Assembly (NCBI GenBank): GCA_951394045.1
Contig: OX595997.1
Span: 1,798,001 to 1,862,000, forward strand
Direction of reading: 5' to 3'
DNA from: Nitzschia sp. DOCU1
Taxonomy: Eukaryota > Bacillariophyta > Bacillariophyceae > Bacillariales > Bacillariaceae
Length of the DNA stretch: 64,000 bases
How positions within the stretch are numbered: position 1 is the first letter of the stretch; every line of letters begins with the position of its first letter. Made by a program: the position numbers and the translations under genes. This document shows positions 19,224-48,864 of this stretch, piece after piece. The notes under the pieces were generated by a model. The model worked only from the letters and a program-made list of their open reading frames with translations, made no database searches and was not told the origin of the DNA.

Positions 19224-19323
19224 CTCTGATCAGAAACTACGTGAGACTTCGTAACGAGCCGTGTATCGCAACGATAGGCGACCCCTTTCAAAACAACTTT
19301 CAAGACAACTTATCTCCAAGACC

Positions 19324-26893: not shown

Positions 26894-28961
26894 AGGAAAT
26901 CATGATACCTTGACACTTTTTCTCCTTTTCCACCCGGAACAATCCGCTTCATGCATGTCCTCAAAGAATCTTCTGAAACATGATAAAGAGCGATAACTTT
27001 TGTACATAAACTTCATTGAAACAGCTTGATTACTGTCTTCTAAAACACTGTTGCGTTGAGAACTATCTACTATCTGCCGAACCGCTCTGCTCTTCAGCAT
27101 AAGATCTTCCATTTGTGCTGACCGTGGCGCCGTAGTCCTATTAGTAAATGCCGAATGTTCACACGCCGCCAGTATGGTTCGTCGTCAATAGGCACGACCA
27201 GGAGCAGTAGCTACTACTAATAGCCTCCTAAAAGAACAAGTATCAATACTACTAGTACAACTGATAAAACCACGTGAGAACAGCTATACTGTCTCTAACA
27301 ACTATAGTCGTTGTGAACGGAGCGCACTTCACTGGAAGATTCGGTGCTATCAATTGTATCCCGGGTGGGATTGACTTCGTTTCATGCCTGATCCGAACTT
27401 CAAATCAATGAATTGCAGATTGCTGGTGGTGCCATGCCTGCCTGCTCCCAGCAGCTCACCTCCACTCAGCATGCCGACATGCTCCAAACTACAATGGCGG
27501 CATCAGCCCATTCAAAGAACTGGTAGCTGCTGACTTATTCCCGCCGATCAGTGAAGACAACCAAAGTAGCCCAAGGCAAGACTAGGCAGAGCATGATGGT
27601 GGCAGCGTGCTGCTGCTTCCATAGTGCAGCCGCTGCTATAGTACCCCCTGGTGACCTCAAAGCCGGTCCCAAGAACCCCACCCCGTAATTTCTCCTTTTT
27701 TCTCCCTTTTCTGGGCTGGCCAGGAACGGTCAAAGAATCTTTGATCTCCAATAAAAAATAACTTGATGGATGGTTAAGAAATTGAGAACGGCCATGTTAA
27801 AGCCATTGCAATGATTCAGTGCTGCCGGTTCAAGAAGTCCTTCCACCAGGAGGATCCGACTTGCGCCCAGCTAGCGTTTTTGCAGCCCCCCCCCCCCTCT
27901 CAAGCGAAAAAAAGCAACGCTTCACAAGGTCCACCGAATTCCAGCATTGTCTCCAAGCAATGATTGCCAGATTGAAATCCATTCAAGCAAGCGCGAATCA
28001 ACTCGTCCAGGTAAATAGTACGTCAACGATTTTGAAACAATCTTGGTGTAGCAAACGCTTCATCACACTTCGTTCCACGTTTTGTCAGCTCGCCAGCAGT
28101 GCAATCTCGTCCACTATGCCCTCCAATGAACCATATGGGGGTGCGCAATCAAGCCCACCAGAACTTGGTACCCAAAGCAGAGAACGACCCCGCCAAATCC
28201 CAAGCCAAACAGGGCTCGCAAATTCATGCTTGACCCACATGGGGCAACCTCATGTTGTCATTATAGATTGCAATCTTGGAGAGACATGACCTGTCGTTCC
28301 CTGAATTTGACCCCACACTGCTCAGCGACGCGTTCCCGCAACTTTGGGGCCAAGAGAACGCAATCCACTGGACCTCATCTGCAGATAGACTCACTCTGCG
28401 CTTCTCCTCGGGGCATTATTCAATACCTGCTTCTTTACTTGGCCTGGTTTAGTTGGCCTATTCAACCTGAGCTCGTTGACGGTCGCGAGGAAATTGAAGG
28501 GAAACCCAGAAATGGAAAGGTCAAGTTTGGTATTCGATCGCGAACCTTTCCATGAGACAACAAACTGCGATTGGTTGGCATATTTTGCTTGCGCTTCTTC
28601 TGGGGCATAATCTAATTAGGACGAGTCAGCAAAGATGGAAAGGTCGTCGTGATTTCCTCACCCTTTATCTGACCTTGCAGGCATATTGAGCCTAGAAGTG
28701 GGTGTTGGCGTAGAGCAACCCGAGACTCAAATTCCTTAAGAGAATCGGAAAGGAACGTAATCAAAATACCTGGACGGAAAGATGTAATGACGACAGTATC
28801 CGGGTCGAAATTTGGTAAACGTAAACTCATTTCCTTCTGACACCAGGATAGGCTCATATTTTCTGCGACAGAGAGAGACGACTGCAAAGCCTCTTTCTTT
28901 CTAACATCCGGATAGTCTCATAACTTTTTATTTTGCCAAAGCAAAACAAAACCGGAGCAGT
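26894..28961. other. Spacer between SLC4 copies 1 and 2
   Basis: It holds the 3' UTR of copy 1 and the promoter and 5' UTR of copy 2. A run of 12 C lies near 27886-27897. Open frames here (for example 27819-28289) recur only because the whole unit is repeated, and none has coding character. The same spacer follows copies 2 and 3, with one- or two-base differences such as 27519 and 31008. Confidence 0.6.
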
Positions 28962-30974
28962 ATGGCACCAAAAGCATTCGAGGATGGCGCAATTGCCGTC
29001 AACACTACTAAGCCCAAGAGCACGAACAACGAAGACTTGGTACCTAATGCAGGCAAGGTCTTCATCGAACCGGGAAAGCCATGGGGTCGTGGAGTTGTGG
29101 AGGAGCTGAAAACAACCATCGGAACCCACTGGGTTTCTGAAATGACCAACTTCAACCAAAAGACTGTTGCCGTTTCGGCTTTGATGTTCATCACTGTTGT
29201 TGCCCCCACCTTGACCTTCGGCGCCGTTTATGGACGAAACACGGTGAATCAAATCGGTGCCGTCGAGACAATCCTGGCTTCTGCCTGGGTGGGTTGCTTC
29301 ATGGCTTTCTTCAGTGGCATGCCAACGGTACGAGACAAGAACTCCTCGACGACATGTTTTTCTACAGTGCAGCAGCAAATTTCTCACCTGTTAACCACCG
29401 TTCCTCTCTCCCAAAACGTAGGTTGTTATTGGATGCACTGGTCCCGTCTTGATCATGACTACTGTTATGTATGAAATGTCGATTAACCTCGACATTCCCT
29501 TCCTTCCTTTCTATGCATGGGTTAGCGTCTGGACGTGTGCGTACACAACATTCACGGCGTTTTTTGACTTGACCCGATACGTGCGATACGCGACTCGATT
29601 CACCGACGATATCTTTGCCTTGTTGATCGTGTCCATCTTCATTCTCAATGCCATCGGCAGTCCCTTCGGACCAGGTGGTTTGCTCCGATACTTGGACCCT
29701 GAGAACACTTACCACGAGGACAATGCCGATCTTGAAGAGGAGTACAGCATGCAGGAGACCGCTTTGTTGGCTATCATCCTTGGATTTGGAACGACTGCCA
29801 CCATCTTTTGGCTGCGTGGTTTCAAGACTAGTGGTTTCTGCTGCAACCAAGATGTTCGCAACTCCATTCATGACTTTGCTGTGACCTTTTCTGTGATTAT
29901 CTGGGCCATTGTTTGTCGAGTTGGTTTCCCTGACATTGAGATACCGGGACTTTCTGTCCCTAGCAAGTTTGAACCAACGTACACTTGCTGCGATGCTACG
30001 TGCACTACTTTCTGGCCCGATGACTGCGAAGGCCAAACGGAGCCTACTGGAACTCGTCCTTGGTTTGCCAACATGGGAGATTTGAACGGAAAAGGTTGGG
30101 TTCCTATCATGGCTGCTGGACCGGCTGTTCTCGCTTTCATCCTCTTGTACCTGGATAACGGCAGTAAGTAATTTCCCATGCGTCTAATCCATGCTACTCG
30201 GTAAAACGATTCCGGTCTCTCATCACTTCTTTTCCTGCAGTTACTTGGCACTTGATTTACAACCCTGGAAACAACCTTCAACACGGCGAGTCTTACAACT
30301 GGGATCTTTTTCTGAACGGATTGACCAACATGATCAACGGTATGTTGGGTCTCCCATGGCTCGTCGCTACCACCGTCCCATGCATTGTTCACTTGAACAA
30401 CTTGGCTGAGAAGGATAAGGACGGAAACATCATTCAAGTGCAAGAGACTCGATTGACCCTCTTGTTGTCGCATTTGTTGCTCGGACTTTCGTTGCTATTC
30501 CTGAACGCTCTCAAGCAAATTCCTCTGCCAGTTCTCTTGGGTGTTTTCCTTTTCATGGGTCTCTCATCTTTGCCAGGCATTCAATTCTGGGGCCGATTCT
30601 TGTTGTTTTTCCATCAACCATCCAAGTTCCCGGAGAAACCATTTACCAAGTACATCTCGGCAAAGCGCATCCACATGTACACTGTCTTCCAGATTGTCTT
30701 CTTCTTGGGTGTTTTCTTTGTGCAAAACACTCCTTCTGTTGCCATTGTCTTCCCCTTCATGACGCTGCTGTGTATTCCCGCGCGTCTCTTCTTGGCCCCT
30801 CGTATCTTCCATGGATGGGAACTTTGCCTCCTGGACGGATACGACGAGGAAGTATCTGAGTGGATCGCTGCCAAGGAAGCCGCCCTTCGTCAAGAAGATG
30901 GCCTCAGTGAGTTTGGTGAGGAACCATCTGAAATGGGCGCCGACGCCGAAGATCAAAAGGTTGTTGACGTATAA
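28962..30974 (+). CDS. SLC4-family bicarbonate transporter, copy 2 (613 aa)
   Basis: Exons are 28962-29327, 29422-30163 and 30241-30974. The translated protein appears identical to copy 1. The leader differs: it ends AACCGGAGCAGTATGG, whereas copy 1 ends AGAGCTGCTGCAACATGG. This leader is shared with copies 3 and 4. The promoter segment is shorter than that of copy 1, through loss of the ACGAGTACCGGATTCG-type stretch. Identity of protein and intron sequence with copy 1, despite a diverged promoter, points to recent duplication or gene conversion of the gene body. Confidence 0.9.
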
Positions 30975-33042
30975 AGGAAATCATGATACCTTGACACTTT
31001 CTCTCCTTTTCCACCCGGAACAATCCGCTTCATGCATGTCCTCAAAGAATCTTCTGAAACATGATAAAGAGCGATAACTTTTGTACATAAACTTCATTGA
31101 AACAGCTTGATTACTGTCTTCTAAAACACTGTTGCGTTGAGAACTATCTACTATCTGCCGAACCGCTCTGCTCTTCAGCATAAGATCTTCCATTTGTGCT
31201 GACCGTGGCGCCGTAGTCCTATTAGTAAATGCCGAATGTTCACACGCCGCCAGTATGGTTCGTCGTCAATAGGCACGACCAGGAGCAGTAGCTACTACTA
31301 ATAGCCTCCTAAAAGAACAAGTATCAATACTACTAGTACAACTGATAAAACCACGTGAGAACAGCTATACTGTCTCTAACAACTATAGTCGTTGTGAACG
31401 GAGCGCACTTCACTGGAAGATTCGGTGCTATCAATTGTATCCCGGGTGGGATTGACTTCGTTTCATGCCTGATCCGAACTTCAAATCAATGAATTGCAGA
31501 TTGCTGGTGGTGCCATGCCTGCCTGCTCCCAGCAGCTCACCTCCACTCAGCATGCCGACATGCTCCAAACTACAATGGCGGCATCAGCCCATTCAAAGAA
31601 GTGGTAGCTGCTGACTTATTCCCGCCGATCAGTGAAGACAACCAAAGTAGCCCAAGGCAAGACTAGGCAGAGCATGATGGTGGCAGCGTGCTGCTGCTTC
31701 CATAGTGCAGCCGCTGCTATAGTACCCCCTGGTGACCTCAAAGCCGGTCCCAAGAACCCCACCCCGTAATTTCTCCTTTTTTCTCCCTTTTCTGGGCTGG
31801 CCAGGAACGGTCAAAGAATCTTTGATCTCCAATAAAAAATAACTTGATGGATGGTTAAGAAATTGAGAACGGCCATGTTAAAGCCATTGCAATGATTCAG
31901 TGCTGCCGGTTCAAGAAGTCCTTCCACCAGGAGGATCCGACTTGCGCCCAGCTAGCGTTTTTGCAGCCCCCCCCCCCCTCTCAAGCGAAAAAAAGCAACG
32001 CTTCACAAGGTCCACCGAATTCCAGCATTGTCTCCAAGCAATGATTGCCAGATTGAAATCCATTCAAGCAAGCGCGAATCAACTCGTCCAGGTAAATAGT
32101 ACGTCAACGATTTTGAAACAATCTTGGTGTAGCAAACGCTTCATCACACTTCGTTCCACGTTTTGTCAGCTCGCCAGCAGTGCAATCTCGTCCACTATGC
32201 CCTCCAATGAACCATATGGGGGTGCGCAATCAAGCCCACCAGAACTTGGTACCCAAAGCAGAGAACGACCCCGCCAAATCCCAAGCCAAACAGGGCTCGC
32301 AAATTCATGCTTGACCCACATGGGGCAACCTCATGTTGTCATTATAGATTGCAATCTTGGAGAGACATGACCTGTCGTTCCCTGAATTTGACCCCACACT
32401 GCTCAGCGACGCGTTCCCGCAACTTTGGGGCCAAGAGAACGCAATCCACTGGACCTCATCTGCAGATAGACTCACTCTGCGCTTCTCCTCGGGGCATTAT
32501 TCAATACCTGCTTCTTTACTTGGCCTGGTTTAGTTGGCCTATTCAACCTGAGCTCGTTGACGGTCGCGAGGAAATTGAAGGGAAACCCAGAAATGGAAAG
32601 GTCAAGTTTGGTATTCGATCGCGAACCTTTCCATGAGACAACAAACTGCGATTGGTTGGCATATTTTGCTTGCGCTTCTTCTGGGGCATAATCTAATTAG
32701 GACGAGTCAGCAAAGATGGAAAGGTCGTCGTGATTTCCTCACCCTTTATCTGACCTTGCAGGCATATTGAGCCTAGAAGTGGGTGTTGGCGTAGAGCAAC
32801 CCGAGACTCAAATTCCTTAAGAGAATCGGAAAGGAACGTAATCAAAATACCTGGACGGAAAGATGTAATGACGACAGTATCCGGGTCGAAATTTGGTAAA
32901 CGTAAACTCATTTCCTTCTGACACCAGGATAGGCTCATATTTTCTGCGACAGAGAGAGACGACTGCAAAGCCTCTTTCTTTCTAACATCCGGATAGTCTC
33001 ATAACTTTTTATTTTGCCAAAGCAAAACAAAACCGGAGCAGT
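30975..33042. other. Spacer between SLC4 copies 2 and 3
   Basis: This is the same sequence as the preceding spacer, containing 3' UTR, 12-C run and promoter. One visible difference is TTTCTCTCC at 31008 where the other copies have TTTTTCTCC. Confidence 0.6.
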
Positions 33043-35055
33043 ATGGCACCAAAAGCATTCGAGGATGGCGCAATTGCCGTCAACACTACTAAGCCCAAGA
33101 GCACGAACAACGAAGACTTGGTACCTAATGCAGGCAAGGTCTTCATCGAACCGGGAAAGCCATGGGGTCGTGGAGTTGTGGAGGAGCTGAAAACAACCAT
33201 CGGAACCCACTGGGTTTCTGAAATGACCAACTTCAACCAAAAGACTGTTGCCGTTTCGGCTTTGATGTTCATCACTGTTGTTGCCCCCACCTTGACCTTC
33301 GGCGCCGTTTATGGACGAAACACGGTGAATCAAATCGGTGCCGTCGAGACAATCCTGGCTTCTGCCTGGGTGGGTTGCTTCATGGCTTTCTTCAGTGGCA
33401 TGCCAACGGTACGAGACAAGAACTCCTCGACGACATGTTTTTCTACAGTGCAGCAGCAAATTTCTCACCTGTTAACCACCGTTCCTCTCTCCCAAAACGT
33501 AGGTTGTTATTGGATGCACTGGTCCCGTCTTGATCATGACTACTGTTATGTATGAAATGTCGATTAACCTCGACATTCCCTTCCTTCCTTTCTATGCATG
33601 GGTTAGCGTCTGGACGTGTGCGTACACAACATTCACGGCGTTTTTTGTCTTGACCCGATACGTGCGATACGCGACTCGATTCACCGACGATATCTTTGCC
33701 TTGTTGATCGTGTCCATCTTCATTCTCAATGCCATCGGCAGTCCCTTCGGACCAGGTGGTTTGCTCCGATACTTGGACCCTGAGAACACTTACCACGAGG
33801 ACAATGCCGATCTTGAAGAGGAGTACAGCATGCAGGAGACCGCTTTGTTGGCTATCATCCTTGGATTTGGAACGACTGCCACCATCTTTTGGCTGCGTGG
33901 TTTCAAGACTAGTGGTTTCTGCTGCAACCAAGATGTTCGCAACTCCATTCATGACTTTGCTGTGACCTTTTCTGTGATTATCTGGGCCATTGTTTGTCGA
34001 GTTGGTTTCCCTGACATTGAGATACCGGGACTTTCTGTCCCTAGCAAGTTTGAACCAACGTACACTTGCTGCGATGCTACGTGCACTACTTTCTGGCCCG
34101 ATGACTGCGAAGGCCAAACGGAGCCTACTGGAACTCGTCCTTGGTTTGCCAACATGGGAGATTTGAACGGAAAAGGTTGGGTTCCTATCATGGCTGCTGG
34201 ACCGGCTGTTCTCGCTTTCATCCTCTTGTACCTGGATAACGGCAGTAAGTAATTTCCCATGCGTCTAATCCATGCTACTCGGTAAAACGATTCCGGTCTC
34301 TCATCACTTCTTTTCCTGCAGTTACTTGGCACTTGATTTACAACCCTGGAAACAACCTTCAACACGGCGAGTCTTACAACTGGGATCTTTTTCTGAACGG
34401 ATTGACCAACATGATCAACGGTATGTTGGGTCTCCCATGGCTCGTCGCTACCACCGTCCCATGCATTGTTCACTTGAACAACTTGGCTGAGAAGGATAAG
34501 GACGGAAACATCATTCAAGTGCAAGAGACTCGATTGACCCTCTTGTTGTCGCATTTGTTGCTCGGACTTTCGTTGCTATTCCTGAACGCTCTCAAGCAAA
34601 TTCCTCTGCCAGTTCTCTTGGGTGTTTTCCTTTTCATGGGTCTCTCATCTTTGCCAGGCATTCAATTCTGGGGCCGATTCTTGTTGTTTTTCCATCAACC
34701 ATCCAAGTTCCCGGAGAAACCATTTACCAAGTACATCTCGGCAAAGCGCATCCACATGTACACTGTCTTCCAGATTGTCTTCTTCTTGGGTGTTTTCTTT
34801 GTGCAAAACACTCCTTCTGTTGCCATTGTCTTCCCCTTCATGACGCTGCTGTGTATTCCCGCGCGTCTCTTCTTGGCCCCTCGTATCTTCCATGGATGGG
34901 AACTTTGCCTCCTGGACGGATACGACGAGGAAGTATCTGAGTGGATCGCTGCCAAGGAAGCCGCCCTTCGTCAAGAAGATGGCCTCAGTGAGTTTGGTGA
35001 GGAACCATCTGAAATGGGCGCCGACGCCGAAGATCAAAAGGTTGTTGACGTATAA
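33043..35055 (+). CDS. SLC4-family bicarbonate transporter, copy 3 (613 aa, D171V)
   Basis: Exons are 33043-33408, 33503-34244 and 34322-35055. The only protein difference from copies 1 and 2 that I noticed is Asp171 to Val (GAC to GTC, base 33648) in the segment FFDLTRYVRYATRF, just before the conserved TRFTDDIF motif. The change removes a charge at the membrane boundary and could alter transport, or it may be a sequencing error. Promoter and introns match copy 2. Confidence 0.9.
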
Positions 35056-37123
35056 AGGAAATCATGATACCTTGACACTTTTTCTCCTTTTCCACCCGGA
35101 ACAATCCGCTTCATGCATGTCCTCAAAGAATCTTCTGAAACATGATAAAGAGCGATAACTTTTGTACATAAACTTCATTGAAACAGCTTGATTACTGTCT
35201 TCTAAAACACTGTTGCGTTGAGAACTATCTACTATCTGCCGAACCGCTCTGCTCTTCAGCATAAGATCTTCCATTTGTGCTGACCGTGGCGCCGTAGTCC
35301 TATTAGTAAATGCCGAATGTTCACACGCCGCCAGTATGGTTCGTCGTCAATAGGCACGACCAGGAGCAGTAGCTACTACTAATAGCCTCCTAAAAGAACA
35401 AGTATCAATACTACTAGTACAACTGATAAAACCACGTGAGAACAGCTATACTGTCTCTAACAACTATAGTCGTTGTGAACGGAGCGCACTTCACTGGAAG
35501 ATTCGGTGCTATCAATTGTATCCCGGGTGGGATTGACTTCGTTTCATGCCTGATCCGAACTTCAAATCAATGAATTGCAGATTGCTGGTGGTGCCATGCC
35601 TGCCTGCTCCCAGCAGCTCACCTCCACTCAGCATGCCGACATGCTCCAAACTACAATGGCGGCATCAGCCCATTCAAAGAAGTGGTAGCTGCTGACTTAT
35701 TCCCGCCGATCAGTGAAGACAACCAAAGTAGCCCAAGGCAAGACTAGGCAGAGCATGATGGTGGCAGCGTGCTGCTGCTTCCATAGTGCAGCCGCTGCTA
35801 TAGTACCCCCTGGTGACCTCAAAGCCGGTCCCAAGAACCCCACCCCGTAATTTCTCCTTTTTTCTCCCTTTTCTGGGCTGGCCAGGAACGGTCAAAGAAT
35901 CTTTGATCTCCAATAAAAAATAACTTGATGGATGGTTAAGAAATTGAGAACGGCCATGTTAAAGCCATTGCAATGATTCAGTGCTGCCGGTTCAAGAAGT
36001 CCTTCCACCAGGAGGATCCGACTTGCGCCCAGCTAGCGTTTTTGCAGCCCCCCCCCCCCTCTCAAGCGAAAAAAAGCAACGCTTCACAAGGTCCACCGAA
36101 TTCCAGCATTGTCTCCAAGCAATGATTGCCAGATTGAAATCCATTCAAGCAAGCGCGAATCAACTCGTCCAGGTAAATAGTACGTCAACGATTTTGAAAC
36201 AATCTTGGTGTAGCAAACGCTTCATCACACTTCGTTCCACGTTTTGTCAGCTCGCCAGCAGTGCAATCTCGTCCACTATGCCCTCCAATGAACCATATGG
36301 GGGTGCGCAATCAAGCCCACCAGAACTTGGTACCCAAAGCAGAGAACGACCCCGCCAAATCCCAAGCCAAACAGGGCTCGCAAATTCATGCTTGACCCAC
36401 ATGGGGCAACCTCATGTTGTCATTATAGATTGCAATCTTGGAGAGACATGACCTGTCGTTCCCTGAATTTGACCCCACACTGCTCAGCGACGCGTTCCCG
36501 CAACTTTGGGGCCAAGAGAACGCAATCCACTGGACCTCATCTGCAGATAGACTCACTCTGCGCTTCTCCTCGGGGCATTATTCAATACCTGCTTCTTTAC
36601 TTGGCCTGGTTTAGTTGGCCTATTCAACCTGAGCTCGTTGACGGTCGCGAGGAAATTGAAGGGAAACCCAGAAATGGAAAGGTCAAGTTTGGTATTCGAT
36701 CGCGAACCTTTCCATGAGACAACAAACTGCGATTGGTTGGCATATTTTGCTTGCGCTTCTTCTGGGGCATAATCTAATTAGGACGAGTCAGCAAAGATGG
36801 AAAGGTCGTCGTGATTTCCTCACCCTTTATCTGACCTTGCAGGCATATTGAGCCTAGAAGTGGGTGTTGGCGTAGAGCAACCCGAGACTCAAATTCCTTA
36901 AGAGAATCGGAAAGGAACGTAATCAAAATACCTGGACGGAAAGATGTAATGACGACAGTATCCGGGTCGAAATTTGGTAAACGTAAACTCATTTCCTTCT
37001 GACACCAGGATAGGCTCATATTTTCTGCGACAGAGAGAGACGACTGCAAAGCCTCTTTCTTTCTAACATCCGGATAGTCTCATAACTTTTTATTTTGCCA
37101 AAGCAAAACAAAACCGGAGCAGT
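35056..37123. other. Spacer between SLC4 copies 3 and 4
   Basis: This is the third occurrence of the spacer, with 3' UTR, 12-C run and promoter; no independent gene is supported. Confidence 0.6.
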
Positions 37124-39136
37124 ATGGCACCAAAAGCATTCGAGGATGGCGCAATTGCCGTCAACACTACTAAGCCCAAGAGCACGAACAACGAAGACTT
37201 GGTACCTAATGCAGGCAAGGTCTTCATCGAACCGGGAAAGCCATGGGGTCGTGGAGTTGTGGAGGAGCTGAAAACAACCATCGGAACCCACTGGGTTTCT
37301 GAAATGACCAACTTCAACCAAAAGACTGTTGCCGTTTCGGCTTTGATGTTCATCACTGTTGTTGCCCCCACCTTGACCTTCGGCGCCGTTTATGGACGAA
37401 ACACGGTGAATCAAATCGGTGCCGTCGAGACAATCCTGGCTTCTGCCTGGGTGGGTTGCTTCATGGCTTTCTTCAGTGGCATGCCAACGGTACGAGACAA
37501 GAACTCCTCGACGACATGTTTTTCTACAGTGCAGCAGCAAATTTCTCACCTGTTAACCACCGTTCCTCTCTCCCAAAACGTAGGTTGTTATTGGATGCAC
37601 TGGTCCCGTCTTGATCATGACTACTGTTATGTATGAAATGTCGATTAACCTCGACATTCCCTTCCTTCCTTTCTATGCATGGGTTAGCGTCTGGACGTGT
37701 GCGTACACAACATTCACGGCGTTTTTTGACTTGACCCGATACGTGCGATACGCGACTCGATTCACCGACGATATCTTTGCCTTGTTGATCGTGTCCATCT
37801 TCATTCTCAATGCCATCGGCAGTCCCTTCGGACCAGGTGGTTTGCTCCGATACTTGGACCCTGAGAACACTTACCACGAGGACAATGCCGATCTTGAAGA
37901 GGAGTACAGCATGCAGGAGACCGCTTTGTTGGCTATCATCCTTGGATTTGGAACGACTGCCACCATCTTTTGGCTGCGTGGTTTCAAGACTAGTGGTTTC
38001 TGCTGCAACCAAGATGTTCGCAACTCCATTCATGACTTTGCTGTGACCTTTTCTGTGATTATCTGGGCCATTGTTTGTCGAGTTGGTTTCCCTGACATTG
38101 AGATACCGGGACTTTCTGTCCCTAGCAAGTTTGAACCAACGTACACTTGCTGCGATGCTACGTGCACTACTTTCTGGCCCGATGACTGCGAAGGCCAAAC
38201 GGAGCCTACTGGAACTCGTCCTTGGTTTGCCAACATGGGAGATTTGAACGGAAAAGGTTGGGTTCCTATCATGGCTGCTGGACCGGCTGTTCTCGCTTTC
38301 ATCCTCTTGTACCTGGATAACGGCAGTAAGTAATTTCCCATGCGTCTAATCCATGCTACTCGGTAAAACGATTCCGGTCTCTCATCACTTCTTTTCCTGC
38401 AGTTACTTGGCACTTGATTTACAACCCTGGAAACAACCTTCAACACGGCGAGTCTTACAACTGGGATCTTTTTCTGAACGGATTGACCAACATGATCAAC
38501 GGTATGTTGGGTCTCCCATGGCTCGTCGCTACCACCGTCCCATGCCTTGTTCACTTGAACAACTTGGCTGAGAAGGATAAGGAAGGAAACATCATTCAAG
38601 TGCAAGAGACTCGATTGACCCTCTTGTTCTCGCATTTGTTGCTCGGGTGTTCGTTGCTATTCCTGAACGCTCTCAAGCAAATTCCTCTGCCAGTTCTCTT
38701 GGGAGTTTTCCTTTTCATGGGTCTCTCATCTTTGCCAGGCATTCAATTCTGGGGCCGATTCTTGCTGTTTTTCCATCAACCATCCAAGTTCCCGGAGAAA
38801 CCATTTACCAAGTACATCTCGGCAAAGCGCATCCACATGTACACTGTCTTCCAGATTGTCTTCTTCTTGGGTGTTTTCTTTGTGCAAAACACTCCTTCTG
38901 TTGCCATTGTCTTCCCCTTCATGACGCTGCTGTGTATTCCCGCGCGTCTCTTCTTGGCCCCTCGTATCTTCCATGGATGGGAACTTTGCCTCCTGGACGG
39001 ATACGACGAGGAAGTATCTGAGTGGATCGCTGCCAAGGAAGCCGCCCTTCGTCAAGAAGACGGCCTCAGTGAGTTTGGTGAGGAACCATCTGAAATGGGC
39101 GCCGACGCCGAAGATCAAAAGGTTGTTGACGTATAA
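37124..39136 (+). CDS. SLC4-family bicarbonate transporter, copy 4 (613 aa, diverged 3' half)
   Basis: Exons are 37124-37489, 37584-38325 and 38403-39136. The first two exons match copy 2. Exon 3 carries four substitutions in 35 residues: I418L, D430E, L445F and L452C, plus silent changes near 38705, 38765 and 39060. The 3' UTR differs at more sites, and homology with the unit ends at 39684. Most changes are conservative, so the protein is probably functional. As the last unit, it has escaped homogenisation at its right edge. Confidence 0.9.
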
Positions 39137-39684
39137 AGGAAATCATGATGCCTTGACACCTTTTCTCATTTTCCACTCCGAACAATCCGCTTCATGCATG
39201 TCCTCATAGAATCTTCTGAAACATGATAAAGAGCGATAACTTTTGTACATAAACTTCATTGAAACAGCTTGATTACTGTCTTCTAAAACACTGTTGCGTT
39301 GAGAACTATCTACTATCTGCCGAACCGCTCTGCTCTTCAGCATAAGATCTTCCATTTGTGCTGACCGTGGCGCCGTAGTCCTAGCAGTAAATGCCGAATA
39401 TTCACACGCCGCCAGTATGACTCGTAGTCAATAGGCACGACCAGGAGCAGTAGCTACTACTAATAGTCTCCTAAAAGAACAAGTATCAATACTACTAGTA
39501 CAACTGATAAAACCACGTGAGAACAGCTATACTGTCTCTAACAACTATAGTCGTTGTGAACGGAGCGCACTTCACTGGAAGATTCGGTGCTATCAATCGT
39601 ATCCCGGGTGGGTTTGACTTCGTTTCATGCCTGATCCGAACTTTAACTCAATGAATTGCAGATTGCTGGTGGTGCCATGCCTGC

Positions 39685-40581: not shown

Positions 40582-41679
40582 TCATGGAACGGCATAGACC
40601 GGTGGTGGTTGAAGAACTATGGAAGTTGACGTCAATAACGTCTCACCATCGTCGTGAGGGTGGTCGTCATTCTCCATTTGTGCATCTTGAAATACATCAT
40701 CATCGTCGTCGTCTTCGTCGTCTTGACTACTATTGTCGTCTTTGTCTTGGTCTTCGTAGAGACTAGCTGTTCGTCGAGGTGTCGGCGATATAGATTTATC
40801 CGTGGCCTTGCTTTCTGTCCATCGATTGATCGATTTACCCGTGGAATTCTTGAGAATACTTTTGGTGGGGGTTGTCAAACTTGACGAAGATGACTTTGGA
40901 AGAGGAGAGATTGGCGGAGTACTACTACTAGTAGTAGTAACACTGACTGTGGAAGGACCCACTTTCAGCAGTAGTCGTTGTATCATTTGCGATTGAATGT
41001 CCAAATAGTGTCGTTGCAACTGTTGTCGTTGTGCCAAGTATCGTTCGGTTTGAATAATGACTGCCATAAATTTCTTTGGCAAGGTAGTTTTGTGTCGTTT
41101 TTCCTGTCCCAAACGTTCCGCATACACTTCCATTAACAATGCATTGCAATTTCGTTGGGCAATATCCAATTGTTCCTTGGTCATCATGGCTTGATGTAGA
41201 CCCCGTAATAAAAATCCTTCACACCATCCATACCAGCTATACGACGGCGACGACGGCGACGCCTCTTCTTCTTCTGTCTTGCTTTCCTCAACAGGAGCAT
41301 CAAATGTTTCTCGAATGATTCTACAATATTCAAAATAGGAAATGTGTTGTTTGGCACGTGGTGTCGCTTTGGCGAGTTGGAATCGTTTGGCTTGCAAATT
41401 GGCTTGTAGCTTTGCTACTTGTTCTGTATGGCTATGCCGTGTAATCCTGGCCTGTTCTCGAATGTCTGTCAGCTCTTGTTGGACTCGTTCTAGCTCGTCT
41501 AGTTCTTTGTTCAAAGCAGCAGTAGCATTGGCAACTGCAGCGCAAGTGTCGTCGCTAGTCGTCCTTTCTGTTTCTTCTGCATCTGGATCATCATCGTCGT
41601 CGTCATTCTGTTCAGCATCTGAATCTTTCGCCTTGCTGCTGCTGCTGCAGTCTTCTCGTTGCGTCCAAAACCAGAACAT
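40582..41679 (-). CDS. Coiled-coil protein of unknown function, 365 aa
   Basis: The ATG at 41679 is preferred, because the further upstream frame lacks an ATG. An acidic N-terminus (DDDDDDPDAEETE) is followed by a probable coiled coil at residues ~50-110 (ALNKELDELERVQQELTDI). A conserved-looking central region (SYFEYCRIIRETFD, then WYGWCEGFLLRGLHQAMM) and a second helical block (AERLGQEKRHKTTLPKKF) come next. The end is a Ser/Pro/Lys-rich tail with an acidic DDEDDDDDDVFQD block. I do not recognise a named domain. It is transcribed away from the I29/SYMPKSYK gene and shares its 900-bp upstream region, including the TGACGT elements, so co-regulation is possible. Confidence 0.6.
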   Translation of the reverse strand: MFWFWTQREDCSSSSKAKDSDAEQNDDDDDDPDAEETERTTSDDTCAAVANATAALNKELDELERVQQELTDIREQARITRHSHTEQVAKLQANLQAKRFQLAKATPRAKQHISYFEYCRIIRETFDAPVEESKTEEEEASPSSPSYSWYGWCEGFLLRGLHQAMMTKEQLDIAQRNCNALLMEVYAERLGQEKRHKTTLPKKFMAVIIQTERYLAQRQQLQRHYLDIQSQMIQRLLLKVGPSTVSVTTTSSSTPPISPLPKSSSSSLTTPTKSILKNSTGKSINRWTESKATDKSISPTPRRTASLYEDQDKDDNSSQDDEDDDDDDVFQDAQMENDDHPHDDGETLLTSTSIVLQPPPVYAVP

Positions 41680-42058
41680 GTGTTGTTCTCTTGGATAGGA
41701 TGTGTCGAAATGCAACCCTAGTGGCGTTGCTTCTAGAGATGCAGGCACAACCCACCACAACAAAGAAAGTAGGCGTGAGCAAATCGTCGTCGGTCGTCCC
41801 CTGCAACAACAATATCAACAACGGCTTTCAATCTCTAATAATGGCAACGAATCAGAAGCGCCAGGTTGGATAGTTCGCAAACGACCAGAGAAAGAGCAGC
41901 GACTAACAAGAGAAGAACAAGATTGATAGTTGCTACCATCGCGACTTCCCTTTCTTCCTTCTTTCGGGGGGTCATTTTCTCACTCCGTCCCATCGATGAG
42001 ACATTTTTGGACTCACCCGGGTCTCAAATTTGACTTTCTTCCTGTCAAATTTGACTTT

Positions 42059-42192
42059 TGAAATTCCCGATTCCAAATTCTCATGACGTAGACTGCGATC
42101 TTTTGACGTCAGCAAGTTAGTCTGTTTTCATCTCGAAATCGAAATTCCTGATTCCAAATACCCGTGACGTAGATCGCGATCTTTTGACGTCA
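42059..42192. repeat. 81-bp tandem duplication carrying TGACGT and TGACGTCA
   Basis: The block GATTCCAAAT ... TGACGTA ... GCGATCTTTTGACGTCA occurs twice with an offset of 81 bp (TGACGT at 42084 and 42165; TGACGTCA at 42104 and 42185). Confidence 0.85.
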
Positions 42193-42269
42193 TAACATGC
42201 GTCCAAGTGGAGGCTGAACAGACAGTGACGCAAATCCACGCACGCCGCCCTCCCGTTTGCGAATGACGC
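42084..42269. promoter_or_regulatory. Cluster of CRE/CCRE-like elements in a shared divergent promoter
   Basis: TGACGT lies at 42084-42089 and 42165-42170. The palindrome TGACGTCA lies at 42104-42111 and 42185-42192. TGACGC lies at 42226-42231 and 42264-42269. These are bZIP-type sites. The same three cores (TGACGT, ACGTCA, TGACGC) are the CO2/cAMP-responsive elements reported for the Phaeodactylum PtCA1 promoter. They sit 310-500 bp before the ATG at 42581 and 400-590 bp before the minus-strand ATG at 41679. The function here is inferred from the motif. Confidence 0.6.
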
Positions 42270-42497
42270 ATGTCAAAACGCATATCCGAAGTTGGCAACA
42301 AGGATGTGATGTGATGTGATGTGTGTGGACCATCTGCGAACTGAGAAAAGCTGCATTTTGGTTGGTTCTTGGATGCGATCCACCCATCACTTCTGGGCTT
42401 GCGATTGGAAGATTTTGTGTCGACCGCAACGCCAACGACCCATCACATCTCGAACCTAACGGCATCGTTTCACATTCTGGATCGCCGACACTTTCTT

Positions 42498-42522
42498 TTT
42501 GCTTTGCTTTGCTTTGCTTTGC
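42498..42522 (+). repeat. TTTGC microsatellite (x5)
   Basis: Five TTTGC units lie in the probable 5' UTR, about 60 bp before the start codon at 42581. Confidence 0.8.
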
Positions 42523-42580
42523 TAACATTACAAACTCACACTCAAGGCACAACAGCTCTACTAGCCTTACTCCTTTCACC

Positions 42581-45500
42581 ATGAAGATTAGCAGCGCTGC
42601 CTTGTGGGCAGTGATCGGTGCTTCCCTCCAATGGGAAGTCCTTTCGTTTGCCACGCTTCCTCGACCGGTCGCTTCGCGAACGCCCGTCGTTGCTGGCCTG
42701 CCACACTTTCATTCGGTAGGACGAGTGGCCTTACAGTTGGCGGCTCTTCCAACGATTGATATTCGTACGGCACCGCCCGAACAAATTGATTCGCTAGTAA
42801 GAGATGAATACATGGCATGGGCACTAAAGTTTGGCAAGCCTACCAGTGATTCTCGTTATCCAATCTTCAAGAGAAACTATTTGATGCAACTCCAATACGA
42901 TCAACAGACAGGCGTCTATTGTGGTCTCAATGAATTTGGAGACATGACGCCACAAGAATATGAACAATTCACGGCACAAAAACCTGAAAAGCCTACTAAT
43001 CCAACGCCGACTGTCGGAGATGTCGATGGCAAGATTCGTTCCGAATATCAAGCCTGGGCCAAGGACTTTGGCAAGGAACTGTCCGAAGAACGTTATAGTG
43101 TATTCAAATCCAATTTTATGGAAAATATGAAATACTACGAACAAACGGGAACCTACTATGTCTTGAATGAATATGCCGATTGGACACCTCAAGAATATGA
43201 AGCCTTGAAGCAAGAGGTACGCAAACGACATGTGTCTCCTGTGCTACTGTATTGTGCTTCTTATTCTGACCATTGAATTCTTTGCATATTGTTATTTGTC
43301 ATGAAACAGCCGGCAGTGGACAGTGTCGAAGCTGTGGCTGCCGCAAATTACATGGAATCCTTGGGTGGTGGTAGTAGTGGCGGAGCTGCTGCTGTCAAAG
43401 CATCGTCCTACATGCCAAAATCGTACAAGCCAAGTTCAGGAAGTGGAATGCCATCGTATTTTGATAACATGAACAGCAGTGGTGCAACTACGACGTCGTC
43501 GGCTTCGTTGACACCCGCTGGACCTGCCGACCATCATTCTGCTGCTCCTCCATCGGGGGCAGGAATGCCGTCATATGCCGATCGACTGGCGGGTGGAACT
43601 GGCGGCGGCAAAATGAAGCCGGCTTCTTACATGCCGAAATCTTACAAGCAAAGCTCTGGAAGTGGCATGCCATCGTATTTTGACAGCATGAGCGGCGGTG
43701 GCGGTGGAGGTAGTGCTCCATCAAGTTTTACAGCACCACCGGCCTCGTCGTCGCAGGCTGCCGGTACTCCCCCAACTGGCGCAGGAATGCCATCGTATGC
43801 TGATCGTTTGGCGGGTGGAACTGGCGGGAAGATGAAACCTGCGTCGTATATGCCGAAATCTTACAAGCAGAGTTCCGGAAGCGGTATGCCTTCGTATTTC
43901 GACAGTATGAGTGGTGGTGGCGGTGGAGGCAGTGCTCCATCAAGTTATACAGCACCACCGGCCTCGTCGTCGCAGGCTGCCGGTACTCCCCCAACTGGCG
44001 CAGGAATGCCATCGTATGCCGATCGTTTGGCAGGTGGATCTGGCGGGAAGATGAAGCCTGCGTCGTACATGCCAAAATCTTACAAGCAGAGTTCCGGAAG
44101 TGGCATGCCTTCGTATTTTGACAGCATGAGCGGCGGTGGCGGTGGAGGCAGTGCTCCATCAAGTTATACAGCACCACCGGCCTCGTCGTCGCAGGCTGCC
44201 GGTACTCCCCCAACAGGCGCGGGAATGCCATCGTATGCCGATAGGCTGGCAGGTGGATCTGGCGGGAAGATGAAGCCTGCGTCGTACATGCCAAAATCGT
44301 ACAAGCAGAGTTCCGGAAGTGGCATGCCTTCGTATTTCGATAGCATGAGTGGTGGTGGCGGTGGAGGTAGTGCTCCATCAAGTTATACAGCACCACCGGC
44401 TTCATCGTCGCAAGCTGCCGGTACGCCCCCAACAGGTGCAGGAATGCCATCGTATGCCGATCGTTTGGCAGGTGGATCTGGTGGCAAAATGAAGCCAGCC
44501 TCTTACATGCCAAAATCGTACAAGCAAAGTTCAGGAAGTGGCATGCCTTCGTATTTCGACAGTATGAGTGGTGGTGGAGGTAGTGCTCCATCAAGTTATA
44601 CAGCACCACCGGCTTCATCGTCGCAAGCTGCCGGTACTCCCCCAACTGGCGCAGGAATGCCATCGTATGCCGATCGTTTGGCAGGTGGATCTGGCGGGAA
44701 GATGAAGCCTGCGTCGTATATGCCAAAATCGTACAAGCAGTCGTCGGGATCTGGAATGCCTTCATATTTCAACAGTATGGGAAGCAGCGGCGGCTCTTCG
44801 CCCAGTTATTCGGCACCTCCTGAAGCCGCAGCAGCTCAGCAAGCCGCCAGTAGCAGCACCCCACCTTCTGGAGCAGGTATGTCCTCCTACACAGAAGCTC
44901 TTTCAGGAGGCGGAAGCACGATGAAGCAGTCGTCGTACATGCCCAAATCATACAAGAAGTCGTCCGGCTCTGGAATGCCTTCCTACTTTGATAGCATGGG
45001 TGGTACTGGTTCTTCTGGAGCTGCCGCTGGCCCTTCCTCATACGCCGAATCGCTTTCTGGAGGATCCGCAAAGATGAAGCAGTCTTCCTACATGCCCAAA
45101 TCGTACAAGCAATCGTCGGGATCTGGCATGCCGTCGTACTTCGACAACATTGGAAGTAGTGGCGGCGCCACACCCAGCTATTCGGCGCCTCCCGCTTCGT
45201 CCGGGCCTGCTCCAGCCCAACAGCAAGCCGCCAGTAGCAGCGCCCCGCCTTCTGGAATGCCTTCCTACTTTGATAGCATGGGTGGAACTGGTTCCTCTGG
45301 AGCTGCCGCCGGGCCTTCCTCATACGCCGAATCTCTTTCTGGAGGATCCGCAAAGATGAAGCCATCTTCCTACATGCCCAAATCGTACAAGCAATCTTCG
45401 GGGTCTGGAATGCCGTCGTACTTCGACAACATTGGAAGTAGTGGTGGCGCTGCACCCAGTTATTCGGCGCCTCCTGCTACGTCCGGGCCTACTCCAGCAC

Positions 45501-46585
45501 AGCAGCAAGCCGCCAGTAGCAGTGCCCCACCTTCGGGAGCAGGTATGTCATCCTACACAGAAGCTCTTTCGGGAGGCGGAAGCAAGATGAAGCAGTCGTC
45601 GTACATGCCCAAATCATACAAGAAGTCGTCCGGCTCTGGAATGCCTTCCTACTTTGATAGCATGGGTGGAACTGGTTCCTCTGGAGCTGCCGCCGGGCCT
45701 TCCTCATACGCCGAATCTCTTTCTGGAGGATCCGCAAAGATGAAGCCATCTTCCTACATGCCCAAATCGTACAAGCAATCTTCGGGGTCTGGAATGCCGT
45801 CGTACTTCGACAACATTGGAAGTAGTGGTGGCGCTGCACCCAGTTATTCGGCGCCTCCTGCTACGTCCGGGCCTACTCCAGCACAGCAGCAAGCCGCCAG
45901 TAGCAGCACTCCACCTTCTGGAGCTGGTATGTCATCTTACACAGAAGCTCTGTCGGGTGGCGGAAGCAAGATGAAGCAGTCGTCGTACATGCCTAAATCA
46001 TACAAGAAGTCGTCCGGCTCTGGAATGCCTTCTTACTTTGATAGCATGGGCGGCGGTGGTAAGCAGTCTTCGTACATGCCCAAATCGTACAAGCAATCGT
46101 CGGGATCTGGAATGCCGTCGTACTTTGACAACATGGGCCCCGCCTGGGGAACGGCGCCCAAAACTCCGTCTCTAGGCTTCAAAGAAACTTCTCCACCACC
46201 AAATGTCCGACCGAATATTGCTCCTGCTCGACCGGCGAATGCTCAAGCAACCCAGCTTGCTCGCGTCACCAACAGCCCCACACAAGCCAAGATTAATACT
46301 AAACTCAAGTGCGATCAGACCATGATCATGCGAGAAGGAGAGTTCTTTTTGCCGCATGCCATGGATCCTGTCATTAAGCGAAAAAATCTCCAGCCGGATC
46401 AGGACAGTAGCTCGCGCTATTTCTTTACCGGCCGTCTTTGTGCTTCTGAACCATTCCGCCCCGTTCCCATGGAGAGTCGGTTCCCATCGGATCAAGAACG
46501 AGCCGACGTTCAAACCAGACGAACTCTCATGTATTTCCAACAAGCCAACCGCAGGCGCTTTTCGAATCCCAAGATTCAAGAGTAA
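42581..46585 (+). CDS. Presumptive plastid protein: two I29-like domains plus 14x SYMPKSYK array, 1303 aa
   Basis: Exons are 42581-43216 and 43310-46585, with a 93-bp GT-AG intron in phase 0. The N-terminus is a signal peptide (residues 1-22) followed at VLS-FATLP by Phe at the predicted +1 position, like the diatom ASAFAP plastid motif, and then an Arg/Ser transit-like stretch. Residues ~75-130 and ~154-209 are two copies of a cathepsin-propeptide (I29)-like fold with ERFNIN-type spacing and LNEFGDMTPQEY or LNEYADWTPQEY; no protease domain follows. The rest is Gly/Ser/Pro/Ala rich, with 14 copies of SYMPKSYK, each followed by a GSGMPSYFD-type motif. The first half has a 73-residue period. 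A basic ~150-residue C-terminal region ends the protein. Probably a disordered multivalent scaffold; a pyrenoid role is a hypothesis. Confidence 0.75.
43404..46130 (+). repeat. Coding tandem repeats of the SYMPKSYK array
   Basis: Successive repeats start 219 bp apart (ATG of SYMPKSYK at 43631, 43850, 44069, 44288, 44507), then 213 bp to 44720. The second half uses a compound unit alternating KKSSGSGMPSYFDSM and KQSSGSGMPSYFDNI versions. High DNA identity between units shows recent expansion. Large antisense frames here are by-products of the repeat. Confidence 0.9.
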
Positions 46586-47349: not shown

Positions 47350-48864
47350 CTAAAGGTAAGAAGAGTAGTCGAGTCGTGGTGTGGAAGACGACGACGACGT
47401 TTGTAGCGAGGAGGAAGGTCCCGCAAGTTTGCGTTGCCACTCATTCAAATGGTGGGCTACAGATCGTGTATATACCAGTGGTTGTTGACCCGCAGAACCA
47501 AACACGGCTTGGGAAGGTACACGTTGTAAAAACGACAAGGTGCGTCGGACCGAAGAACAAAACAAATCCACCCGCTCTAAATGGGGTGAAGTCGATGTGG
47601 CATGTAACAAGGCATCGTCTTGGGCTTTCAATAACTGGTCCAAATGAGGATGAGGCTGGTATTCAAAGGCTTCAATGGACAACTCGCCAGGTGGAGTGTG
47701 ACGCGTATGAATGACCGACAAGGAATTTCGACAACGATTCATGGCCCGTGCCCAGATTCGAGCCTGACGTACTTCGAGGGCCGGACCTTGAAGCTGCACT
47801 GGGATTTCCTCTAGAGAAAAGACACGACCCGTCCTCGTTTCAATGCCCATGCCGCGCGCATACAACAAGTTTTCGTTGGAAACAACATTCAAACCCGAAA
47901 TAGCGGCCGTCACGAGATGGATGGTGAGTTGGGAAGCATACTTGTCGGCTAACATGGCCCAGGTTTCCATCAAGTCTTTGGATAGTTTGTGGGAGGTTCC
48001 TTCGTTACAACCTCCCACTAAATGAAGATCCATTTGAATGTTTGAGATTTGGAGTTTTTTGTTGTTGTTGCTGCTGTGGGGAAGCATGGCAGGCAAAAAG
48101 CCAGGAAACTGAAATGTTTCGGTAGGACTTGTCGTTGGTAACCAATTGCTCTGGCTGTTGTTGTTGTTGTTGTTGTTATGATGATTGTAGCTGTCATTAT
48201 CGTTTTCGCCTGCATCTTCTTCGTGTTCATCCACGGCATCAAAAAATCCAAAATCGTCGTCGTGATCATGCACTTGAGCCGTCTTGGCACTATCATCATC
48301 GTCATCGAGCTCATCATGAGCGTCGGCTACAAGTGACTTTAGTATTGTTTCGTTTTCTTGATGATGCCGCAAATGTTCCAAGAGCATTTCTTCCAAACAG
48401 TGCGGTACGCATTCATCCAAGTGGGCCAGCGTTGTTAATGTACTGCTTGTAGTGCTCTTCTTGCTATGCAAGGCCAGTACATGACACGTCGTGGCATATC
48501 CACTTATCAAAATATCAATTTGTTGATGAGTCGCATGAGCGACTTCTCCTTGCAAGACGTTTAGGCACGTCGTTGCGGTAGCATCCATGCGTTCTTCCAA
48601 GAAGGACAAGCATGACGATTGATGATGGAGATCTCGGGCTCGTTTGGCTAGTGTAGGATGTGTTTCCAAATAACGATTCAAGTCTGCCGGACTGGATTCT
48701 CGTCGTGGCAAGCGCAATACTTGACCACACGGCAAATGCAGGGCTGTTCGAGTCGTTGAGTGATTGCCCGATGGGCTGCTGGAATCTTCTTCTTCGTGTG
48801 CTGCTGCCGCCGCCGTCAAGCACAAGTGGAGGCAAGATTGCGACTTGGAGATTCTTCGGGCCAT
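47350..48864 (-). CDS. NTAN1: Protein N-terminal asparagine amidohydrolase (NTAN1), 504 aa
   Basis: The enzyme deamidates N-terminal Asn to Asp, feeding the Arg/N-degron pathway in cytosol or nucleus. The sequence shows the family's ATTCH motif with the presumed catalytic Cys at residue 127 (SGYATTCHVLALHS). It also has MDLHLVGGCNEG, the IHLVTAAISGLN segment, a GPALEVRQARIW region and the C-terminal YQPHPHLDQLL with TSPHLE. Family members are usually about 300 aa. The extra length comes from a low-complexity Asp/His/Asn insert at residues ~175-250 and a Ser-rich tail. The start at 48864 gives a basic N-terminus; no intron is needed. The gene is convergent with the 42581 gene and divergent from 49372. 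Confidence 0.85.
   Translation of the reverse strand: MARRISKSQSCLHLCLTAAAAAHEEEDSSSPSGNHSTTRTALHLPCGQVLRLPRRESSPADLNRYLETHPTLAKRARDLHHQSSCLSFLEERMDATATTCLNVLQGEVAHATHQQIDILISGYATTCHVLALHSKKSTTSSTLTTLAHLDECVPHCLEEMLLEHLRHHQENETILKSLVADAHDELDDDDDSAKTAQVHDHDDDFGFFDAVDEHEEDAGENDNDSYNHHNNNNNNNSQSNWLPTTSPTETFQFPGFLPAMLPHSSNNNKKLQISNIQMDLHLVGGCNEGTSHKLSKDLMETWAMLADKYASQLTIHLVTAAISGLNVVSNENLLYARGMGIETRTGRVFSLEEIPVQLQGPALEVRQARIWARAMNRCRNSLSVIHTRHTPPGELSIEAFEYQPHPHLDQLLKAQDDALLHATSTSPHLERVDLFCSSVRRTLSFLQRVPSQAVFGSAGQQPLVYTRSVAHHLNEWQRKLAGPSSSLQTSSSSSTPRLDYSSYL

Follow-up and report, generated by a model that had tools for sequence, protein, structure and literature searches.

A protease-free I29 repeat protein of the diatom Nitzschia sp. 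DOCU1 as a candidate pyrenoid scaffold

The 64,000-nucleotide stretch of DNA analysed here (the window; C13:1798001-1862000, in contig:position notation, of the 52-Mb genome of the diatom Nitzschia sp. DOCU1, assembled in 63 contigs) contains a two-exon gene at positions 42581-46585, whose predicted product of 1303 residues combines two I29 domains with a long region of two repeated short motifs. The gene and its features lie on the plus strand. Exon 1 (42581-43216) encodes a signal peptide, a transit-like stretch and the two I29 domains, and exon 2 (43310-46585, including the stop codon) encodes the repeat region and a C-terminal module. The exons are separated by a frame-keeping GT-AG intron of 93 nucleotides (43217-43309; GTACGC...ACAG), which was picked by its donor, its acceptor and the resulting protein, as seven further GT/AG pairs keep the frame too.

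Residues 1-22 (42581-42646) resemble a signal peptide in sequence, hydropathy and residue counts, and the likely cleavage site precedes Phe23, the first residue of FATLP (MKISSAALWAVIGASLQWEVLS followed by FATLPRP). Residue counts suggest a transit peptide at residues 23-59 (42647-42757), since the 37 residues starting at Phe23 include three Arg/Lys and no Asp/Glu. A signal peptide followed by Phe and an acid-free stretch is the layout of diatom plastid import. The protein belongs to the Pfam I29 family (PF08246) with 44.6 bits against a curated cutoff of 24.4 over two stretches; domain 1 covers approximately residues 66-132 (42776-42976; best PF08246 stretch 89-127) and domain 2 approximately residues 145-211 (43013-43213), the outer bounds being taken from AlphaFold2 helices. 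No protease (Peptidase C1) domain was found by the Pfam search of both exons, and the product is thus not a papain-type protease with an I29 propeptide. The I29 region is helical in the AlphaFold2 model (two-sequence alignment, mean predicted local distance difference test score [pLDDT] of 62). The best PDB match of this model is the Toxoplasma cathepsin L propeptide (template modelling score of 0.69 by target length, probability 0.99, weak expectation [E] value of 0.16), and the comparison gave no match at E 0.001. Matches of exon 1 to the NCBIfam families of adenylate kinase and SurE were considered artefacts.

The disordered repeat region, residues 225-1154 (43346-46135), carries 14 copies of SYMPKSYK and 28 matches to [SNT]Yx[DEN]x[LMFI] in a Gly/Ser/Pro/Ala linker. 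The preliminary description of this DNA had placed the gene at the same start and stop and had reported a signal peptide with Phe, two I29 domains without a protease and exactly 14 SYMPKSYK motifs, all of which were confirmed; the regular spacing of ~73 residues that it described holds in the first half of the array but not in the second, where intervals range from 51 to 94 and the last is 29 (73, 73, 73, 73, 73, 71, 73, 51, 94, 77, 51, 77, and 29 residues). The 14 copies are written in 11 different DNA spellings with zero nonsynonymous differences. The second motif has the form G-M-x-S-Y-x-(D/E/N)-x-(L/M/I); the protein contains 24 copies of it, and a stricter pattern was matched 23 times in exon 2, whereas 2000 shuffles gave 0.002 matches on average. 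Given the conservation of SYMPKSYK and the shuffling of the second motif, neither is a chance product. The ratio of nonsynonymous to synonymous substitution rates (dN/dS) in the 22-residue motif block is 0.05. In a codon alignment of the repeat units, the corresponding ratio of proportions of differences (pN/pS) was 0.11 in the block versus 0.39 outside it, whereas the synonymous proportion (pS) was similar in the block and elsewhere (0.65 versus 0.61), and the motifs have therefore been maintained by selection rather than merely copied recently. The repeat region is basic, with an isoelectric point (pI) of 9.6. As a proxy for disorder, 572 of the 628 residues in the modelled part of the 1303-residue protein (44699-46582) had a pLDDT below 50 in AlphaFold2. 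Matches of exon 2 to the Pfam families Phage_tail_T (30.2 bits, above the cutoff of 25.9) and Phage_term_smal were considered artefacts.

When protein sequences were searched with residues 1-500 as the query, and only the 7995 candidates having most words in common with it were scored, ten proteins were returned (P0001-P0010); because of this limit and this query, further relatives may have been missed. P0001, P0002, and P0004 match exon 2 including the C-terminal module, with 62, 59, and 61% identity to window positions 44699-46582. The metagenomic protein P0003 likewise combines two I29 stretches with both motifs and the C-terminal module, but is 43% identical where aligned to exon 1 and carries an additional C-terminal SYMPTTYKK...GSGMPSYFDHF, whereas P0009 and P0010 have the motifs and the module in common with the Nitzschia protein. 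The predicted proteins P0001-P0004, the nearest relatives that this search gave, lack an N-terminal signal, probably because the 5' exon is absent from the prediction. Searches with residues 296-343 of P0009 and with the tail of P0007 returned, respectively, P0009 alone and seven proteins that were all among the relatives already found. The conserved C-terminal module itself (residues 1211-1289; 46304-46540) was aligned with P0001-P0004, P0009, and P0010 and has the consensus LKCDQ..FLPH..DPVI.R..SDQE.A...R..LMYFQ; a single helix is predicted by AlphaFold2 near the C-terminus (46490-46561). In P0003, P0009, and P0010, SDQ..E..R units recur within the module, and the chain ends in an SxMPxxxxK...SGxGMPSYFD(N/H)F tail; the Pfam search of the three proteins assigned the module to no family. 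A further match to the module (C12:1813289, E 0.011), considered as a second copy, contains an internal stop and was rejected, the six-frame reading revealing no related gene there.

The two motifs are shared by proteins of unlike architecture. P0005-P0007, from metagenomic sequences, are bestrophin channels (PF25539) and thus, unlike the Nitzschia protein, membrane channels, whose tails contain three, four, and four SYMPKSYK-like and four, five, and four GMPSYFDNF-like copies, respectively, the last of the GSGMPSYFDNF-like repeats ending at most two residues from the C-terminus. The GMPSYFDNF-like motif does not occur in the channel part of these proteins, and its shuffle means were at most 0.0005. 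P0008 resembles the Pfam family DPC2 (PF25195; 66.6 bits, the cutoff being 70) and contains 18 copies of the second motif if a looser pattern is applied, or 12 under the strict pattern. P0001, P0002, and P0004 are weakly DPC2-like (36.8, 35.2, and 26.5 bits), and the precomputed database label PF25195 is attached to these three proteins and to P0008. In single BLAST comparisons, in which low complexity helps the E values, exon 2 matched P0008 at E 1e-41, P0007 at E 1e-24, and the first of two DPC2-like genes of the Nitzschia genome at E 1e-7.

These two genes lie ~45 kb apart on contig C3 (L089:1134-2057 and L090:280-1059, in coordinates of the extracted loci) and encode repeat proteins 307 and 259 residues long, both beginning with a signal-like stretch. 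Both were found by pattern search and escaped the search of the genome with the Pfam DPC2 profile, which gave nothing at E 0.001; compared directly with PF25195 they reached E 1.3e-12 and 2.8e-11 (48.5 and 44.2 bits, both under the cutoff of 70). The pattern GMPxYFD had 15 matches genome-wide, 14 of them in the studied gene, and none in the reversed control; the remaining match, at C2:3316311, is in a 21-residue frame and was considered chance. The pattern G.GM.(S/T/C)Y.(D/E).L had 14 matches, again with none in the reversed control: nine in the studied gene, three at C3:1222909-1223363 and one at C3:1268459, which are the two DPC2-like genes, and one at C2:2613501 with Cys in place of the expected Ser, a probable chance site. 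Judged by these two patterns, the motif is carried in this genome by the studied gene and the DPC2-like genes. SYMPKSYK is absent from all three DPC2-like proteins examined. The preliminary description had counted the absence of any plastid signal in homologues against a plastid role; among the bestrophins and DPC2-like proteins, on which this could be checked, P0006 and P0007 have a signal peptide plus Phe and the two C3 genes have signal-like N-termini, but no such signal is visible at the N-terminus of P0005.

Two I29 searches combined detected 18 distinct places in the genome at E 0.001, including the studied gene; one I29 family search alone misses this gene and is therefore incomplete. 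Papain-type proteases were recognised by the GSCW string at C12:629313, C8:2424675, and C5:2590788. Twelve I29 open reading frames lack the papain active-site string and show their N-terminal region; in these, the residue after the signal-like stretch, judged by eye, was Phe in ten (the studied gene, C3:3254275, C9:2412059, C1:4040664, C1:5727611, C16:160965, C16:173017, C1:2485248, C9:336646, and C13:41876), Tyr in one (C9:335252), and Leu in one (C1:2480232), although later exons could still encode a protease. At C9:2412059 the start codon lies outside the locus, and the I29 places C2:2794281, C28:5057, and C10:382553 are outside this count. Because Phe follows the signal-like stretch in ten of the 12, the I29 fold seems, judged from sequence, to serve in this genome as a module of plastid-type proteins. 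Some I29 proteins without a papain string in the frame have disordered or charged tails, or long charged or membrane segments, with open frames of up to 3836 residues, and the protein at C3:3254275, with two I29-like units, contains FSYMPKSN. The loci with I29 but no papain string in the frame include L061 (C3:3254275), L045 (C9:2412059), L046/L047 (C1), L056/L057 (C16), L053/L054 (C1:2480-2485 kb), L067/L068 (C9:335-337 kb), and L075 (C13:41876).

Upstream of the gene, three full units of 4081 bp and a partial fourth (24901-39681, plus strand) each contain an SLC4-type HCO3- transporter gene, with PF00955 found in all four units at E values down to 1.3e-55. The three full units are 99.95% identical, which points either to amplification in the very recent past or to an artefact of assembly. 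From the end of the last SLC4 frame at 39136 it is ~3.4 kb to the ATG, with a minus-strand frame (40582-41763) in between; a fifth C13 copy lies inverted 53 kb away at C13:1787502-1789255, and PF00955 has 40 exon-level matches genome-wide. SLC4 proteins are described as HCO3- pumps of diatom CO2-concentrating mechanisms (PMC13159521); the adjacency was noticed after the fact, and such a role of the present copies is putative. Closer to the gene, TGACGT/TGACGC sites cluster at 42084-42269 (plus strand), including two TGACGTCA palindromes at 42104 and 42185. The 580 bp upstream of the ATG (42001-42580) hold eight of the 53 TGACG(T/C) sites of the window and are its densest place (mean of 0.48 per 580 bp; sites were counted on both strands, so that each palindrome counts twice). 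Six of the eight sites fall within two adjacent 81-nucleotide stretches with 56 identical positions of 81, which therefore resemble the two halves of an ancient duplication that has kept its sites. The TGACGT/C element has been tied to the CO2/cyclic AMP response in Phaeodactylum (PMC11142338).

We compared the protein with known pyrenoid components. PYCO1 of Phaeodactylum tricornutum is similar in being a basic diatom plastid protein with disordered repeats of ~80 residues and aromatic stickers (PMC10288592), but the available part of that account mentions no I29 domains, which are present in the Nitzschia protein. The coding pattern of KWSPRGGS, the small-subunit sticker of PYCO1, had zero matches in the 52 Mb, on which ground PYCO1 homology was rejected, and KWSP is absent from the studied protein; a likeness of its motif to the large-subunit helix AAEWGSMNQ of PYCO1 is not claimed, the alignment being ambiguous. 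The Rubisco-binding motif of EPYC1 type reads (D/N)W(R/K)xx(L/I/V/A), and the spliced protein has no match to it. The DPC2 family, to judge by P0008 and the C3 pair, has similar G-(M/L/I)-x-(S/T)-Y-x-D-x-L repeats and Gly/Ser linkers, whereas the studied protein has I29 domains and SYMPKSYK. By these tests, the protein is not a member of the PYCO1, EPYC1, or DPC2 families at the sequence level. In Chlamydomonas, a single motif on the matrix linker EPYC1, the membrane proteins RBMP1/2, and others including SAGA1/2 is proposed to assemble the pyrenoid from linker, membrane, and sheath proteins (PMC10473226), and in a comparable way the diatom motif occurs on a linker-like protein, a channel tail, and a third family. 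The Chlamydomonas motif is unrelated in sequence and belongs to a green-lineage pyrenoid, and the partner of the diatom motif is putative. Known linkers are described as disordered proteins with repeated binding elements spaced by 20-120 residues, and their listed features also include structured repeats, location in the plastid and pyrenoid, and the binding and condensation of Rubisco (PMC11570498). With regard to the features listed in that source, all 13 SYMPKSYK intervals (29-94) fall in this range; the protein is largely disordered by the AlphaFold2 proxy, which covers 628 of 1303 residues; the repeating elements are present, with no helix predicted from a shallow alignment; and for plastid and pyrenoid location a signal peptide plus Phe was observed.

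Taken together, we favour, with modest confidence, the reading that the gene encodes a nucleus-encoded, plastid-targeted, mostly disordered multivalent scaffold, or matrix linker, of the diatom pyrenoid, where import, location, Rubisco as the partner, and condensation are all what we infer. It is based on the motif and its selection, common to such unlike proteins as bestrophin tails, the DPC2-like P0008, and the C3 genes; on the signal peptide plus Phe, the disorder proxy, the linker-like spacing, and the basic pI; on the SLC4 neighbours and the upstream TGACGT/C cluster; and on the report that the C-terminal extension of the bestrophin PtBST3 is required for its pyrenoid location in Phaeodactylum, with the signal within it given as unknown in that source (PMC11142338). 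The plastid or pyrenoid scaffold proposed in the preliminary description thereby gains independent support from motif sharing, SLC4 and TGACGT/C, but the motif held in common with DPC2-like proteins is GMxSYxDxL rather than the SYMPKSYK on which that proposal was centred, and GMxSYxDxL is probably the key motif. After import, two folded N-terminal I29 domains would be followed by a basic chain, ~930 residues long, that presents two stickers in many copies, SYMPKSYK and G-M-x-S-Y-x-(D/E)-x-(L/M). Each sticker may have weak affinity for one common partner, for which Rubisco is the likeliest candidate, so that many copies would cross-link the partner into a matrix, and the same sticker on DPC2-type repeat proteins and, in some diatoms, on bestrophin tails could recruit these proteins to the condensate. 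By analogy, the simplest reading would be that GMxSYxDxL is the diatom counterpart of the Chlamydomonas motif and that the studied protein is the matrix linker. A broader proposal, which we advance only tentatively, is that G-(M/L/I)-x-S-Y-x-(D/E)-x-(L/M/F) is the diatoms' own common pyrenoid-assembly motif, carried by a giant linker, DPC2-type proteins, and some bestrophin tails, convergent with the Chlamydomonas motif but unrelated to it and to PYCO1, and that I29 was co-opted in protease-free form in a plastid scaffold family.

Several observations weigh against the pyrenoid scaffold. AlphaFold2, from a shallow four-sequence alignment, predicted no helix in the motifs, and accordingly gave no support to the idea that the motif (Ser, x, x, Asp/Glu) caps a helix; the sole PDB match of the motif string was a nanobody (E 0.35). 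Exon 2 has no match to PF25195 at E values up to 1, which places the protein outside DPC2, and the score of its relative P0001 (36.8 bits) is below the family cutoff of 70. The pyrenoid location of DPC2 is taken here from the family name in Pfam, "Diatom pyrenoid component 2", and similarity scores are inflated by the Gly/Ser-rich repeats. The genome's own bestrophin closest to P0007 (C15, 68% identity) has a different tail, and its open frame lacks the motif, although further exons beyond the frame are possible. A regular-expression search for both motifs in loci L024-L057, which include 20 of the 25 bestrophin matches but not the I29 locus L061, found none. The 25 exon-level Bestrophin_2 matches on many contigs point to a large channel family.

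The distribution of the motif on the membrane channels P0005-P0007 and on DPC2-like proteins would also suit an adaptor between pyrenoid sub-compartments, in which the motif binds the shell, the penetrating thylakoid, or itself instead of Rubisco. Diatom pyrenoids possess a protein shell (PMC13159521); however, copy number and spacing resemble those of a matrix linker, and we regard the adaptor as rather unlikely, though a serious alternative. The prevalence of Phe among the protease-free I29 frames, some with long charged or membrane segments in place of stickers, could instead indicate a plastid scaffold outside the pyrenoid (e.g. at the envelope or thylakoid edge, or related to import), with the I29 modules belonging to a wider plastid-type family. 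Such a role is improbable in view of the motif common to DPC2-like proteins, the SLC4 neighbours, and the TGACGT/C sites. Gly/Ser/Lys-rich repeats are found in some extracellular proteins, but a secreted or frustule-associated low-complexity protein with Phe after its signal peptide by chance is very unlikely, considering the acid-free stretch that follows and the same motif on the signal-plus-Phe bestrophins P0006 and P0007. Least credible of all is a plastid cysteine-protease inhibitor with the repeats as a spacer, as the I29 fold of cathepsin propeptide inhibitors would allow, since the copies agree in their motif residues but vary in the linker, and since the repeats and C-terminal module are common to P0001 and P0002.

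If the protein is the pyrenoid scaffold that we favour, it bears on a process of some consequence, as diatoms contribute as much as about one-fifth of the CO2 fixed globally. The PYCO1 report, in the part available, found no homologue in other sequenced algae by BLAST (PMC10288592), and the builder of other diatom pyrenoids is therefore an open question. A 2023 review proposed that assembly via common Rubisco-binding motifs may hold across algae with different sequences (PMC10473226), and the studied gene supplies a concrete short peptide for testing such common-motif assembly. It also hints at a way in which bestrophins could be sent to the pyrenoid by their tails and offers a candidate red-lineage linker for pyrenoid engineering. 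No title or abstract among the literature matches listed dealt with this motif or with plastid I29 proteins, although an earlier description in the 2024 diatom pyrenoid proteome papers is possible.

Other features of the window and the genome were recorded in passing. Retroelement open frames occupy window positions 3172-7233 (RVT_2 type) and 19261-24006 (RVT_1 with RNase H and an integrase zinc-binding domain). The silicon-transporter family has 18 exon-level matches in the genome, the best at E 8e-181. Downstream of the studied gene, the next frame of at least 200 residues is an N-terminal asparagine amidohydrolase gene (PF14736) on the minus strand at window positions 47350-48864.

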